From assembly GCF_004365965.1 (NCBI RefSeq), contig NZ_SOEB01000007.1:124001-188000 (forward strand): 64,000 nt of DNA, in the 5' to 3' direction. Shown piece after piece: positions 1,280 through 56,452 of the stretch. The stretch comes from Rhodovulum visakhapatnamense (GTDB lineage Bacteria; Pseudomonadota; Alphaproteobacteria; Rhodobacterales; Rhodobacteraceae). A program made the translations under genes and the position numbers. Each line of letters opens with the position of its first letter. Position 1 is the first letter of the stretch. A model generated the notes under the pieces. It had not been told where the DNA came from, did not search any database, and worked only from the letters and a program-made list of their open reading frames with translations.

Positions 1280-1335
1280 GGCTGTCCTCCCCTGGCATCG
1301 GACGGCCGCATCGGCCCGCTTTCGGGCCCGGCACG

Positions 1336-1412
1336 CGACTTCCTCCGCCAGCATGATCTGGTTCAGGTTCTAAGGGTGCTTCTCAGCCCGGGCAGATCCG
1401 GACGCCCCTGTC
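1336..1412 (-). promoter_or_regulatory. TPP (THI-box) riboswitch
   Basis: On the minus strand, upstream of thiM, the conserved THI-box elements appear in order: AGGGGCGTC, then CCGGGCTGAGA, then CACCCTTAGAACCTGA, then ATCATGCTGGCGGAGGAA. These match the TPP aptamer core (CUGAGA, ACCCUU, GAACCUGAUC, UGCNNGC). It ends about 57 nt before the thiM ATG, so repression by thiamine diphosphate, probably through access to the GGGGAGG ribosome site, is expected. Boundaries are approximate. Confidence 0.92.
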
Positions 1413-1599
1413 ACGGGATCCACCAAACCACGTCCGGGCGCGGATGAAAAGGCCCCGGGTGAGGGCCGCGCTTGCACGCGGGGGACGCGGCTGCCAGAAG
1501 ACGGGCACCCCCCACGGGGGCGGATCGGATGAAGGGATGGCGGGCGATGACAGAGCATGATGTTGCGGCGGGCCGCGAACGGGCCGGGCTGGGCCGCGC

Positions 1600-31545: not shown

Positions 31546-31589
31546 CGCGGATCTCCTTACCGGGGCACCCCGCCCGGGTTCGCACGCTT

Positions 31590-31775
31590 GGATGGCAGGT
31601 CTCCTGGCTTGCGGGTCATCGCCGCCCCGACCCTTCCCGGACCTGCGGGTCCAGTGGCCGTCTCGGGGGGCTCTCCGCCTACAGTTGCGGGGGCAGCCGC
31701 GGCTTTGCCGGTGGTTCCGGCGGACCGCGTTCCCTTTTCACCCGCGCAGCCGGCAAGGCCTGCGGGAACCATCGC
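31590..31775 (-). promoter_or_regulatory. Cobalamin (B12) riboswitch
   Basis: The minus strand shows, in order, GTGAAAAGGGAACGCGGT, CCCCCGCAACTGTAGGCGG, GCCACTGG, GGGAAGGG and GATGACCCGC, AAGCCAGGAGACCTGCC: the conserved core of the Cbl aptamer and the B12-box. It ends about 45 nt before the ATG of the 122-residue gene, with GC-rich sequence and a Shine-Dalgarno between. It does not face metH, which is on the other strand. Confidence 0.93.
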
Positions 31776-31906
31776 CGCAAGCGGTACCCGGCGGGGCGGG
31801 CGGCTGTCAATGGCGCAGCGGGTCGTTCGGCAATGTGAAGCGGCCTCATAAAGATCCTGACAAACATGAATTGGACAGGAGCGGCCGAAGGCCATATCTG
31901 CCGTCC

Positions 31907-49531: not shown

Positions 49532-50806
49532 ATGAAGATGGCTGACTATCCCGCCCTCGGCATCCCCGACGAGGGGAAGCTCTCGCACAACATCCTTCAT
49601 TTCGCGCGTGCCCTGCGCAAGGCAGGGCTGCCTGTCGGTCCCGGCCGGGCCATCGACGCCGTTCGCGCGGTCGAGGCGGCGGGCTTCACCGACCGGGCCG
49701 ATTTTCACCATACCCTCGCCGCCTGTTTCGTGTCGCGCCCCGAGCATCGCGCGGTCTTCGACCAGGTGTTCCGGCTGTACTGGCGCGACCCGCGCTTTCT
49801 CGAACACATGATGAGCCTGATGCTGCCTGCGTTGCGCGGTGCCGCGGAAGAGCGCCGGGCGCGCCCGGCCGAGAAGCGCGCGGCCGAGGCGCTGCTGGAT
49901 GGCGTGCCGCGCGATTTGTCCGATCCCGTCGAACCTGGACCCGAAGAGGACATCGAGATCGATGCGACCGGCACCCAGTCGGCACGCGAACGGCTCAAGA
50001 GCCTTGACTTCGAGCAGATGAGCACCGCCGAGACCGCCGAGGCGAAGCGGATGTTGTCCCGGCTGCGCCTGCCGGTGGCGCCCCTTGTGTCGCGCCGCAG
50101 CCAGGCCGCGCGGCACGGGCGGCTGCCCGATTGGCGCGGCACGATGCGCGCCTCCCTGCGCGCGGGCGGGGAGGTCCGCGATTTTTCGCAGAAAAATCGG
50201 CGCCCGCGCTGGCCCAATCTGGTGGTGCTTTGCGACATCTCGGGGTCGATGTCGCAGTATTCCCGCATGGTGCTGCACTTCCTGCACGCCGTCTTGAACG
50301 CCAGGGGTGCGGGCTGGGCGCGGGTCCATGCCTTCACTTTCGGTACCCGCCTGACCAACATCACCCGGCATCTCGCGACCCGCGACGTCGACGCGGCGCT
50401 TGCCGCGGCTGGGGCCGAGGCCCCCGACTGGGAGGGCGGCACCCGAATCGGCAGTGCCCTGCATGCCTTCAACCGCGACTGGTCGCGCCGGGTTCTCGGC
50501 CCCGGCGCGGTCGTGCTGCTGATTACCGACGGGCTCGACCGCGACGAGGCGGACATCCTGTCGCGAGAGATCGAGCGGCTGCATCTCTCGGCGCGCCGTC
50601 TCATCTGGATCAACCCGCTTCTGCGCTGGGACGGATTCGCGCCGAAGGCCCGGGGAATACAGGCGATGCTGCCCCATGTGGACTGCTTTCGCGCGGGCCA
50701 TTCGATCCGCTCGCTGGAAGAGCTCGCCGAGGCCGTCTCCGAGGCCCGCGACACCGGCGAACGCGACCGATTGCTGGCCGCCATGCGACATTCCGGACCG
50801 GTTTGA
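49532..50806 (+). CDS. VWA domain protein (CoxE-like)
   Basis: A 424-residue protein with a von Willebrand A domain in the C-terminal half; MIDAS motif CDISGSMSQYSRM near residue 233, the Thr in HAFTFGTRLTNITRH, and LLITDGLDRDEADIL. The N-terminal part (LSHNILHFARALRKAGLPVGPGRAIDAV) is the CoxE-type helical region. It follows the MoxR gene by 21 nt. The stop codon overlaps an FNR-type palindrome, so a new promoter begins at the end of this gene. Confidence 0.88.
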   Translation: MKMADYPALGIPDEGKLSHNILHFARALRKAGLPVGPGRAIDAVRAVEAAGFTDRADFHHTLAACFVSRPEHRAVFDQVFRLYWRDPRFLEHMMSLMLPALRGAAEERRARPAEKRAAEALLDGVPRDLSDPVEPGPEEDIEIDATGTQSARERLKSLDFEQMSTAETAEAKRMLSRLRLPVAPLVSRRSQAARHGRLPDWRGTMRASLRAGGEVRDFSQKNRRPRWPNLVVLCDISGSMSQYSRMVLHFLHAVLNARGAGWARVHAFTFGTRLTNITRHLATRDVDAALAAAGAEAPDWEGGTRIGSALHAFNRDWSRRVLGPGAVVLLITDGLDRDEADILSREIERLHLSARRLIWINPLLRWDGFAPKARGIQAMLPHVDCFRAGHSIRSLEELAEAVSEARDTGERDRLLAAMRHSGPV

Positions 50807-50816
50807 TCCAGATCAA
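50803..50816 (+). promoter_or_regulatory. FNR/FnrL-type binding site with -10 element
   Basis: TTGAT-CCAG-ATCAA is a perfect FNR-family palindrome centred at 50809.5. TACATC at 50837-50842 can serve as a -10 element, which puts the start near 50851 and the FNR site at -41.5, the class II activator position. It overlaps the stop codon of the CoxE-like gene. Confidence 0.72.
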
Positions 50817-50850
50817 AGTGACGGCCCGGCGAAAGATACATCTGACAGTC

Positions 50851-51011
50851 ACTGTTTGCGGGCGGCGTCGGAACGTTCCCAGCCGGCGCCAGCAAGCCCG
50901 CAGCGAGTCCCTGTGTCTTTCCCAGCACAGGATTTCGGCATCAAAGGGGTCCTCCCTCCCCGGATGCCGGTCAGTGAAACGCCGTGGGCCCTCCCTCCCA
51001 CGGCGTTTTTT
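50851..51011 (+). ncRNA. Predicted FNR-dependent small RNA with CCUCCCU loops
   Basis: A region without an ORF contains several hairpins: TGCGGGC...GCCCGCA; CCTGTG/CACAGG (50910-50931); CGGCATC/GATGCCG (50936-50942, 50963-50969) enclosing TCCTCCCT; and a terminator AAACGCCGTGGG/CCCACGGCGTTT (50977-50988, 50997-51008) whose loop is CCCTCCCT, followed by a T run. Loops of CCUCC type can bind Shine-Dalgarno sequences and recall the CcsR/cuckoo RNA family of Rhodobacter. The upstream FNR site suggests induction when oxygen is low. Start and end are predicted. Confidence 0.62.
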
Positions 51012-51072
51012 GCGTTTCCCGTTTCCGTTTTTGTCACAGGCGATCCGTCTTGATCCGACTCGTCGCGCCCTG

Positions 51073-51102
51073 TCATTATATTCCAAACAGAGAATATAAT
51101 GA
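51073..51102. promoter_or_regulatory. SqrR/BigR-type operator
   Basis: An 11-bp perfect inverted repeat TCATTATATTC / GAATATAATGA around an 8-base spacer, containing ATTC-N8-GAAT, the motif reported for the sulfide-responsive repressor SqrR of Rhodobacter capsulatus. It is AT-rich against a GC-rich background and lies 15 nt before the start of the YeeE pair, where a repressor would block transcription. Confidence 0.75.
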
Positions 51103-51117
51103 GGGGAGTGAAATCCG

Positions 51118-51684
51118 GTGAAACCCATGCCACTCAACTGGAAGATCGGCGGCCCGCTCCTTGGGATCTTGGTCTTCCTGGCCGTGCTTCTGGCCAAGCC
51201 GATCGGCGTCTCGACCCAGTTCGTGGTGCTCGACGCCGTCCTGTGGAACCTCCAGCAGCCCGATGCGGGCATCGTCACGCAGACCGCCGAGGGCTTTACC
51301 TCGACCAATGCCTATCTGGCGAAATCGGGCGGGGCGCTGGCGGCCGAGGCGGGCAATCCGCTGACCTATCCCGTGGTCTTCGTTCTGGCGATGATGGTGG
51401 GGGCGTTCCTGTCCTCGCTGATCCGCTCGACCGTGCCGAAGGGCGAACGCAACGTGCCCGCCATGTACCGCGCCAATACCGGCGGCTTCTGGCCGCTGCG
51501 CTGGGTCCTGGCCTTCGCGGGCGGCGTGCTGGTGCTTTACGGCGCGCGGCTTGCGGGGGGCTGCACCTCGGGGCACATGATGTCGGGGATGATGCAGACC
51601 TCGATCTCGGGCTATGTCTTTGCCTTCGGGGCGTTTCTGACCGCCTTCCCGACGGCGATGGCGCTTCTGAAGAAGGAGGGCTAA
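51118..51684 (+). CDS. YeeE/YedE family sulfur transporter, half 1 (PmpA/B-like)
   Basis: A 188-residue membrane protein with about four helices and the YeeE motif LAGGCTSGHMMSGMM, whose cysteine is important for thiosulfate/persulfide passage in the family. Further: VVFVLAMMVGAFLSSLI and FAFGAFLTAFPTAMALL. GTG 51118 with GGGGAG upstream is chosen; ATG 51127 is an alternative nine bases later. First gene of a pair; regulated by the palindrome upstream, so likely induced by sulfide or persulfide. Confidence 0.85.
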   Translation: MKPMPLNWKIGGPLLGILVFLAVLLAKPIGVSTQFVVLDAVLWNLQQPDAGIVTQTAEGFTSTNAYLAKSGGALAAEAGNPLTYPVVFVLAMMVGAFLSSLIRSTVPKGERNVPAMYRANTGGFWPLRWVLAFAGGVLVLYGARLAGGCTSGHMMSGMMQTSISGYVFAFGAFLTAFPTAMALLKKEG

Positions 51685-51687
51685 GCT

Positions 51688-52302
51688 ATGACCATGACCC
51701 TTGTCATCGCCGGGCTTCTGGGCGCGGCCTTCGGGGCGATGCTCGACCGGATCGGGGCCACGAACCCGAACTGGATCGCGAGGATGCTGACCCTGACCGA
51801 TACCAACCTGATGAAGACCATCCTCGTGGCCATCGGCACCGCCTCGATCCTGATCTTCGCGGGGCAGATGTACGGGCTTGTCGATGTGGGCCACATGTCG
51901 GTGAAGGCGGTCCATGTGGGCGTGCTGCTGGGCGGGGCGATCCTGGGCTTCGGCTGGGCCATCGCGGGCTATTGCCCGGGCACCGGGCTGTGCGGGCTTG
52001 CGGTCGGCCGGATCGATGCGTTGTTCTTCGTGGCGGGCGGGCTCGTTGGCGCCGCGGGCTTCATGGTCAGCTATCCGTTCTGGGAGTCGATCGGGTTTCT
52101 GAACGGCGAGAAATGGACTCTGGGCGCCATTCCGGGGGCCGACTACCCCGCCGCGATCCCGGCGCTGCAGGGCGATCTGGCGGGCATCGTGATGGGGGCT
52201 GCCTTCATCCTTATCGCGATCCTTCTGCCGCGCCGGATCGTCGGACGGACGGCCGCCCGCGCCGCCGCTGCCGACGCCGCGAAGACCGCGCCCGCCGAAT
52301 AG
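51688..52302 (+). CDS. YeeE/YedE family sulfur transporter, half 2 (PmpA/B-like)
   Basis: A 204-residue membrane protein, second half of the split transporter. Motif AIAGYCPGTGLCGLAVGRIDAL carries two cysteines at the place of the CTSGH motif in the first half. Helices: MTLVIAGLLGAAFGAML, LVAIGTASILIFAGQM and GIVMGAAFILIAILL. AAGGAGG lies 10 nt before ATG 51688, and only 3 nt separate the genes. Such split YeeE pairs accompany BigR/SqrR regulators and sulfide-oxidising enzymes elsewhere; none of those are in this window. Confidence 0.87.
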   Translation: MTMTLVIAGLLGAAFGAMLDRIGATNPNWIARMLTLTDTNLMKTILVAIGTASILIFAGQMYGLVDVGHMSVKAVHVGVLLGGAILGFGWAIAGYCPGTGLCGLAVGRIDALFFVAGGLVGAAGFMVSYPFWESIGFLNGEKWTLGAIPGADYPAAIPALQGDLAGIVMGAAFILIAILLPRRIVGRTAARAAAADAAKTAPAE

Positions 52303-55008: not shown

Positions 55009-56352
55009 TCAGGCGGCGCGGAGCGCGACGAGGAAGCTCCGGACCTTGTCAGACAAGGTGCCCGCCTCGCCCGATACGGTGCCGACCGCGTCCTTGAGCG
55101 CCATCGACGTGTCGCCAGACCGTTCCACCCGATGCGAGACGTCGTGGATCATCTGGGCCATGTCGGTGGTGCTGGAGGCCGTCGACTCGGCATGCTGGGA
55201 GATATGCTGGGCGGCCTGGGTCTGTTCGGCCACCGCGACGCGGATGCTGTCCGAGAACGACCTGACCCGGCTGACGCAGTCGCTGATGCCGGTCATGCGG
55301 GTGCCCATCAGCTGGGTTTCGGACTGGATCCGCTTGATCCGGTCGTTGATCGAACTGGTCGCCTGGCTGATCCGTTCGGCCAGGGCCTTGACCTCGAAGG
55401 CGACGACGGCAAAGCCCTTGCCCGCGTCGCCCGCGCGCGAGGCCTCGACCGTCGCGTTCACCGCCAGAAGATTGGTCTGCTTGGCAATCTCGGCGATCAG
55501 GTTCACCACCTCGCCGATTTCCTCGGCCGCGGATTGCAGGCTTTCGACCTGTTCCGATGAGGCCTCGGCCTCTTCCATCGCGTTGGCCGAGGCCGAGGCG
55601 GCGTTGTTCACATCCTGGGTGATCGACGTGATCGAGGCGGACAGCTCATCGATTGCCGAGGCGACGGATTGTGCGCTGGTGGCGATCCGCGAGGCGTTGT
55701 CCGACAGCGAGTCGGCACCTTGACGGGCGCGGGAAATCTCTGTGTTCATGGTGCCCGCCGCATCGTCGAGGCGGCGCATCGAGGTCGACAGCACATCCGT
55801 GATGCGGCCGATGTCGTCCTCGAAATTGCGGCCCAGCGTCGAAAGCCGGGCCTCGTATTCCTCGGCCTGCGCGGCGAAAAAGCCGGAGTTCGCGACCTCG
55901 GTATCCAGCATCAGCACCCGCGACAGGGCGTCCATGTACGGGGTCGGGTCGCCGCGGCCCAGGAAGGATTTCCTGCGCACCTCGGCCATGATCAGACCCT
56001 GAAGCGCCAGACCGACCCGGGCATAGGCCGCAGTATAATGGCTGATCGGCAGGCCGATCCGGTGGTGGACCCGGCCGATCTTTTCCGCACTTTCGAAATA
56101 AGTCTGCGAGAAGTTCGAGCTGAACATGAGAATCCAGTGCTCTTTCTGCTTCTTGCGGGCATGCGCGCGCAGCGCTTCGGTCGTGAAATACGCGTCCCAG
56201 TCAGGGGTGTTGGCGATGTCTTCATAGAAACTCGCCAGCACCGCATCGAGATGCGGCAGCAGGATCTTGCCGACCTCGGCAACGCGCTCGCGTGTCTGCC
56301 CCTGAAGCCCATAGGCCCAAAGACGTGCCGGCTGACGTTTCTTTTCGGCCAT
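55009..56352 (-). CDS. Globin-coupled chemoreceptor (HemAT-like, cytosolic)
   Basis: A 447-residue soluble signal transducer: N-terminal protoglobin sensor (about 1-170; proximal histidine region RVHHRIGLPISHYTAAYARV), then a methyl-accepting signalling domain with the tip EIAKQTNLLAVNATVEASRA and GDAGKGFAVVAFEVKALAER. There is no membrane segment. It should sense oxygen, NO or CO through heme and signal to a CheA/CheW complex. ATG 56352 (MAEKKRQPARL) is preferred to a TTG at 56379. Tip residues deviate slightly (NATVEAS for NAAIEAA). No che genes nearby. Confidence 0.88.
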   Translation of the reverse strand: MAEKKRQPARLWAYGLQGQTRERVAEVGKILLPHLDAVLASFYEDIANTPDWDAYFTTEALRAHARKKQKEHWILMFSSNFSQTYFESAEKIGRVHHRIGLPISHYTAAYARVGLALQGLIMAEVRRKSFLGRGDPTPYMDALSRVLMLDTEVANSGFFAAQAEEYEARLSTLGRNFEDDIGRITDVLSTSMRRLDDAAGTMNTEISRARQGADSLSDNASRIATSAQSVASAIDELSASITSITQDVNNAASASANAMEEAEASSEQVESLQSAAEEIGEVVNLIAEIAKQTNLLAVNATVEASRAGDAGKGFAVVAFEVKALAERISQATSSINDRIKRIQSETQLMGTRMTGISDCVSRVRSFSDSIRVAVAEQTQAAQHISQHAESTASSTTDMAQMIHDVSHRVERSGDTSMALKDAVGTVSGEAGTLSDKVRSFLVALRAA

Positions 56353-56452
56353 GACGCTGACGGTCTCCCTGTTGCGCAAGCGGATGCGATGAGACTATCC
56401 GTCGCGACAGTTGACCCAACGTTACCTTCGCCGAGATAAGGAGAATTATAAC

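Follow-up and report, generated by a model that had tools for sequence, protein, structure and literature searches.

Small RNAs (sRNAs) with several anti-Shine-Dalgarno (anti-SD) hairpins are known from alphaproteobacterial stress control, and the control of sRNAs by FNR-type regulators is also established. Among the former, the CcsR RNAs of Rhodobacter sphaeroides arise by processing of the transcript of ccaF1, a DUF1127 gene read from an RpoHI/RpoHII promoter (PMC10253847 and PMC8625941, in the portions available), in agreement with the stress sigma factor and DUF1127 context that a preliminary description of the present locus had ascribed to them. The loop motif of the cuckoo family is CCUCCUCCC (available portion of PMC3927594). 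Maturation of a precursor by RNase E is a further mark of these RNAs. NfeR1, the alpha-r14 RNA of Sinorhizobium, has its own promoter and three hairpins with variable stems, each exposing an identical CCUCCUCCC loop; according to excerpts of the source, it is under nitrogen-stress control via LsrB/NtrC, acts by pairing, and silences ntrB (PMC10746234).

Among the oxygen-linked sRNAs, FnrS of Escherichia coli is directly regulated by FNR and represses its targets in anoxia, and in R. sphaeroides chromatin immunoprecipitation (ChIP) of FnrL located sites at RSs0019 and RSs2461 (both from the accessible part of PMC4263372). PcrZ of R. sphaeroides is described, in the excerpts available, as a low-oxygen sRNA under PrrA and FnrL. 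As far as the accessible text of the open-access literature goes, it contained no description of an FNR/FnrL-controlled anti-SD RNA or of a Rhodovulum sRNA matching the gene reported below, and no Rhodovulum ChIP or RNA data. The main text of the Rhodobacter capsulatus FnrL paper (PMC4634722) does not use the terms sRNA, small RNA, or non-coding.

A predicted FNR-type promoter between coxE and pmpA

The window, that is, the whole 64,000-nucleotide stretch of Rhodovulum visakhapatnamense DNA that was analysed, contains the following features around the predicted sRNA gene:

49532–50806 (+): CoxE-like VWA protein (Pfam PF05762), upstream neighbour, outside the RNA
50803–50816 (+): FNR/FnrL-type operator TTGATCCAGATCAA, predicted from sequence, overlapping the coxE stop codon
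50837–50842 (+): −10 element TACATC, present as TACAT or TGCAT in relatives
50849–50851 (+): predicted transcription start; a start at 50851 would put the FNR centre at −41.5
50849–51011 (+): predicted small RNA of about 161–163 nt (fold z −6.3; present in all 16 Rhodovulum genomes; covariation)
50856–50903 (+): hairpin H1, with a GUUCCC-containing loop at 50872–50882 (fold; TTCCC invariant)
50905–50935 (+): hairpin H2, loop CUUUCCCA at 50917–50924 (fold, alignment, covariation test)
50936–50969 (+): hairpin H3, loop UCCUCCCU at 50950–50957 (fold, motif count)
about 50976–51011 (+): terminator hairpin, loop CCCUCCCU at 50989–50996, U-run at 51006–51011 (near-invariant in 16 of 16 genomes)
51118–52302 (+): two Sulf_transp genes (YeeE/YedE, PmpAB-like; Pfam PF04143), downstream neighbours, outside the RNA

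The operator is the sole perfect TTGATNNNNATCAA in the 64-kb window, where shuffled sequences lead one to expect 0.02, and both it and the TACATC box stand as the preliminary description had claimed them. The same description placed the FNR site at −41.5. This is exact for a start at 50851, a position that is A or G in all 16 Rhodovulum genomes; however, the start is itself predicted, and the constant 20-nt gap between the FNR site and the −10 element is 2 nt shorter than in most other genera, where it is 22 nt. Throughout the genus, TTGAT and TCAA of the operator are invariant, as are the T, C, A, and T columns of the −10 element (16 of 16 genomes each), and the half-sites read TTGAT/ATCAA in 15 genomes, the remaining one ending in GTCAA. 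Between pairs of Rhodovulum genomes, identity is high in the FNR site (0.90) and the −10 element (0.83) and lower in the RNA (0.65) and the spacer (0.52), a profile such as a used promoter would leave. Conserved in both site and spacing, with the site near −41.5 of the predicted start, the architecture is that of FNR class II promoters. Taken with the comparison across genera given below, this gives good support to a putative class II promoter of FNR type from which a small RNA with anti-SD-like loops would be transcribed.

Elsewhere in the window, a cobalamin riboswitch (31577–31788, minus strand) and a TPP riboswitch (1323–1419, minus strand) were observed. Just before pmpA, at 51077–51098, lies an inverted repeat, TATATTCCAAACAGAGAATATA, which we take to resemble the operator of BigR/SqrR persulfide repressors; similar sequence is found upstream of pmpA in L032, L033, and L100.

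Structure and conservation of the RNA in Rhodovulum

The 164-nt sequence 50849–51012 folds with a predicted energy of −86 kcal/mol, compared to −59.3 ± 4.3 kcal/mol for shuffled sequences (z = −6.3; 0 of 200 as good). Each of the four hairpins in this fold exposes a C-rich loop (AACGUUCCCAG, CUUUCCCA, UCCUCCCU, and CCCUCCCU, in order), and the last hairpin is a terminator of 13 pairs followed by a U-run ending at 51011. The preliminary description had announced a strong terminator, an ORF-free transcript of about 160 nt, and two hairpins with CCUCCCU loops. All of these were recovered, with a predicted length of about 161 nt and no conserved start codon or reading frame inside the RNA across the 16 Rhodovulum genomes, and to the two loops the fold adds GUUCCC and UUUCCC loops, in which TTCCC and TCCC are invariant (16 of 16). 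The window has two copies of the motif GGGNCCTCCCTCCC, each inside the sRNA gene (0.02 expected), while the bare CCTCCCTCC is unremarkable alone, with two occurrences against 1.4 expected. The hairpin stems partly close the loops they carry, and the closing stem UCACUG/CAGUGA of the window RNA is common to some relatives, not to all. Its own promoter, its own terminator, a conserved structure, and no conserved ORF are together the features of an intrinsically terminated trans-acting sRNA.

A DNA search located the gene in all 16 Rhodovulum genomes sampled (the copy in G154 is 98% identical to that of the window), while plain BLAST at E ≤ 0.001 matched a single one of 149 family genomes, the window's own. 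The persistence of the hairpins in relatives, on which the preliminary description had staked its reading, is borne out: in these 16 genomes the loops are kept, the stems vary, and the variation is compensatory. In a MAFFT alignment that was not fitted to the structure, two-sided changes filled 35 cells against 11.3 in shuffled alignments (0 of 500 as high); this signal comes mostly from H1, in which five of the six pairs tested showed compensatory change. H3 lay outside the test, and there is little variation in the stem of the terminator. In a model-fitted alignment, compensatory changes were found at 27 of 31 pairs, a count biased in favour of the structure. The number of CCUCCCUCC motifs also differs, with three in L015 and one each in L012 and L016.

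Given the position between coxE and pmpA, the transcript could be read as a pmpAB leader or attenuator, or as the 3′ UTR of coxE, instead of a separate RNA. This reading does not agree with the promoter and the strong conserved terminator that the gene has of its own, nor with the behaviour of the neighbours. L004 has only fragments of coxE and pmpA, and yet its RNA region shares 90% identity with that of the window; L006 has lost coxDE and keeps the RNA; and in L007, L010, L011, and L016, the RNA is kept with no pmpA directly downstream. Outside the genus, 15 of the 25 loci from further genera introduced below have coxE, pmpA, or xdhC no more than about 1.5 kb from the RNA, and the other ten are elsewhere in their genomes. 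Because the RNA is retained where coxE or pmpA is broken, lost, or no longer adjacent, we rejected a role as leader or 3′ UTR and regard it as hardly credible. At the pmpA loci of Rhodovulum bhavnagarense (L032) and Rhodovulum adriaticum (L033), no RNA was found upstream of pmpA, the sequence there being different.

Relatives within and beyond the family

To look beyond the genus, a covariance model (R1) was built from H2, H3, and the terminator of 14 Rhodovulum sequences, with the promoter excluded. At E ≤ 0.01 it matched 27 of 295 family genomes, 26 of which are not Rhodovulum, and an exact TTGAN6TCAA was present 40–125 nt upstream of 12 of these 26 matches, where the rest of the same loci predicts 0.0045 per match; a thirteenth (L135) has an FNR-type site with one mismatch. 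The model was then retrained on 25 loci (R2), including 14 from outside Rhodovulum, 13 of them from R1 and one from the coxE survey described below. At E ≤ 0.02, R2 matched 55 of 394 family genomes, 53 non-Rhodovulum, and in 24 of the 53 (at least one place inspected in each) an FNR-type site was present. As the 14 training loci from outside Rhodovulum had been chosen partly for that site, the independent evidence consists of the R1 test, the 14 genomes newly found by R2, of which 10 have an FNR-type site, and a second place in G104 (L200), which also has one. No FNR site was seen at any of the 22 loci fetched from the weak tail of R2 (L228–L249), most of which resemble ordinary terminators.

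Counting G040, found by R1 only, 25 further genera thus have the FNR-linked RNA; the FNR-type site is exact in 24 of them and has a mismatch in the other. The distance from the site to the start of a TA is exactly 22 nt in 19 of these genera, as in the class II arrangement. They share descent and hence are not 25 independent origins, and only a minority of the family carries the gene (25 further genera of 393 sampled), as counted by large genome searches whose stricter filters lose weak matches. In a class-wide sample of 289 genomes, a few of them from the same family, only the window's own genome matched at E ≤ 0.002, and collections of plasmids and phages gave no match. In the samples searched the gene is restricted to the family. 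On this comparative evidence there is little doubt that the locus is a real, conserved sRNA gene with a putative promoter of FNR type.

The sequence downstream of coxE was also surveyed in 60 genomes, mostly those with the best CoxE matches among 211 other CoxE-bearing genomes, with some that were already covered or at contig ends omitted. An exact TTGAN6TCAA fell within the first 900 nt in two of the 60: L142, which also has C-rich hairpins, and L145, where the site is just before pmpA. As a separate observation, an FNR-like site lies about 65–95 bp before pmpA (near 2908–2935) in 17 of 80 named pmpA loci, all outside Rhodovulum and with no R1 match upstream of pmpA (L046, L049, L051, L054, L056, L060, L062, L063, L066, L071, L073, L076, L077, L087, L092, L103, and L104).

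From genus to genus, the folds contain one to five hairpins with a C-rich loop, the loop motif being kept while the stems change. Ten members form a subgroup whose branched 5′ element bears CUCCC loops and is accompanied by a hairpin with CUCCCU and a terminator with CCUCCCU; compensatory changes were seen at four of the 19 pairs predicted for it. The folds of L132 and of L216 (the same place as L142) have four C-rich loops. The richest example, in G365 (L250, C30 6000–9000), has an FNR site and five C-rich loops in its fold; by eye it has about seven C-rich runs, with another hairpin array farther downstream. The weakest members, L125, L131, L135, and L137, have one or two such loops (only one in L125, L131, and L137), and L137 is without a good U-run. 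In all ten loci of one subgroup, TGTCGCA precedes the FNR site by 17–18 nt (L114, L115, L116, L117, L121, L124, L211, L213, L214, and L218); in either orientation (TGCGACA/TGTCGCA) it is present in 12 of 24 loci tested, where the best 7-mer of the control windows reached 11. The heptamer could be the site of a second regulator, perhaps RegA/PrrA-like, or reflect common descent.

The preliminary description likened the loops to those of the CcsR/cuckoo RNAs. The likeness is one of C-rich, anti-SD-like hairpin loops in RNAs of the same family, Rhodobacteraceae, and in the case of NfeR1 it extends to several such hairpins, variable stems, and a promoter of their own. Membership is another matter. 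The CcsR1 model of Rfam (RF02791) gave no match at E ≤ 5 in 50780–51040 of the window, and ar14 (RF02344) and ar7 scored 30.8 and 30.0 bits, respectively, about half their curated cut-offs (58.8 bits for ar14 gathering), with E of about 2–3 × 10−4 in this 261-base search. The window loops carry CCUCCCUCC and not the cuckoo/ar14 motif; in contrast to CcsR1–4 of the CIN1 locus, as described in the available portions of their sources, the RNA has an FNR-type promoter of its own, and it has four hairpins where the accessible account of NfeR1 gives three. No DUF1127 gene adjoins it, the neighbours being coxE and the Sulf_transp genes. All five DUF1127 matches in the genome are on other contigs, and in the 800 nt after them CCTCC was found only in L205 (two) and L206 (one), without C-rich hairpin loops of the sRNA kind.

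Some of the covariance-model matches lacking an FNR site follow DUF1127 genes (L112, L120, L122, L123, L222, and L223, confirmed by Pfam) or ammonium-transporter genes (L118, L129, and L225; Pfam PF00909). When 17 loci were scanned with Rfam, ar14 and/or CcsR1 matched L112, L120, L123, and L129 at E ≤ 0.01, and neither matched any of the 13 FNR-linked loci; L123 alone passes the curated cut-off (ar14, 70.1 bits), L129 remaining below it at 44.4 bits. The sub-threshold ar14 and ar7 scores might be taken to suggest a CcsR/cuckoo (CIN1) or ar14 RNA that acquired an FNR promoter, but their low level, the absence of CcsR1, the different loop motif, and the confinement of such matches, among the 17 loci scanned, to those linked with DUF1127 or ammonium-transporter genes make this improbable, and membership was rejected on the Rfam scores and the loop motif. 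Thus, the preliminary description stands for the promoter, the sRNA, and the anti-SD-like loops, and fails for the assignment to CcsR/cuckoo. The RNA appears to belong to a real, undescribed family rather than to the known stress-induced cuckoo RNAs, though its way of working may be that of a cuckoo RNA. The C-rich anti-SD-type hairpins immediately 3′ of the ammonium-transporter gene in L118, L129, and L225 are possibly an ammonium-linked group of cuckoo-like RNAs.

Identity with PcrZ was rejected as well. PcrZ shares the predicted low-oxygen regulation and sits elsewhere, near a cytochrome b561 gene, and its locus in R. sphaeroides 2.4.1 (L203, about 2.3 kb on each side of the coordinate in the available part of PMC6238624) had no R1 match at E ≤ 10. 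The whole genome G051, which we take to be R. sphaeroides 2.4.1, had none at E ≤ 5, and no FNR site follows coxE there in the stretch examined. With no copy detected in that strain, its FnrL ChIP data have no bearing on the sRNA. FnrS shares the predicted FNR control, in a comparison made by description only, and to our knowledge has no such run of C-rich hairpin loops.

Probable regulator, candidate targets, and proposed mode of action

At E ≤ 0.01, PF00325 matches four proteins encoded in the genome of the window. The top match, a protein of FNR type, contains CFDCPIRHRAVCARC and ETVSRQ, and we take it to be FnrL from its cysteine cluster; the three further (Crp-family) matches include two above the cut-off. 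Oxygen or FnrL control of the sRNA is what we infer from the operator, and activation by FnrL in anoxia can be predicted with good confidence. The regulator could instead be another Crp/Fnr-family protein, such as an NO-sensing one of the Dnr/NnrR type or similar, as the other Crp-family proteins in the genome and the TTGAC/GTCAA half-sites in many other genera would allow. The TTGAT/ATCAA half-sites of 15 of the 16 Rhodovulum genomes and the cysteine cluster, presumably of FnrL type, of the best match speak against such a protein, which we consider unlikely. Also in the window, 55009–56379 (minus strand) encodes a probable oxygen sensor in which a chemotaxis signalling domain is joined to a protoglobin domain.

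We propose that, as oxygen falls, FnrL would bind TTGAT-N4-ATCAA at about −41.5 and activate the class II promoter. The free-standing gene would then yield an RNA of about 161 nt ending at its own terminator, whose two CCUCCCU loops, together with GUUCCC and UUUCCC, could pair with G-rich Shine-Dalgarno regions (GGGAGG), and this pairing would reduce the translation of a group of mRNAs as the cells become anoxic. That the RNA acts through pairing with ribosome-binding sites is likely from the loop sequences, and the reading as a whole, an FnrL-activated, anoxia-induced, trans-acting sRNA whose C-rich loops pair with ribosome-binding sites, is probably correct.

Potential partners for such pairing are present. 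The sequence AGGGAGGG, a perfect complement of the CCCUCCCU loop, stands 3–11 nt before an ATG at 22 places in the genome, some of them before frames too short for genes, compared with one for the reversed pattern. These are ordinary Shine-Dalgarno-like sequences, and their existence as partners does not imply their use. Ten of the 22 proteins were scanned, and the sites precede soxA (TIGR04484), a DsbD-like gene, and the genes of glutathione reductase, ribosomal protein S11, and an NtrB-like kinase that scores below the cut-off of the NtrB model. The DsbD-like gene and soxA have their complementary start regions on one contig (G000:C11 3102 and 5868; L258 and L259). Because NfeR1 silences ntrB, this gene was followed as a candidate, the only one; its site is not conserved, RGGGAGG being kept in only three of the 16 Rhodovulum genomes. 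The search for targets suggested in the preliminary description therefore gave complementary sites, but no conserved target.

A different use of the loops is conceivable, in which an sRNA under the same FNR-type regulation titrates an RNA-binding protein or Rho and the number of hairpins sets the capacity. The variation in hairpin number between genera under a constant loop motif, and the arrays of G365, would suit such a sponge. We know of no protein partner for an RNA of this kind. The exact order of CCUCCCU is maintained, which suits pairing with GGGAGG, and NfeR1, with its similar loops, acts by pairing in the available account (PMC10746234); titration is rather unlikely. More broadly, and quite tentatively, the RNAs might form a separate Rhodobacteraceae family, an anoxia-induced, multivalent C-rich-loop RNA in which duplication tunes the number of hairpins (with one or two C-rich loops at the low end and five, or perhaps seven, at the high end), and which attenuates the translation of many mRNAs simultaneously or soaks up an RNA-binding factor when the cells leave oxygen.

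For experimenters, the gene is a defined object that comes with a promoter, a model of its structure, and loops open to mutation. FNR-type control and multi-hairpin anti-SD RNAs, each already known, would here be joined in one family conserved across about 25 genera, which would extend the oxygen regulon of purple bacteria and their relatives to the control of translation.
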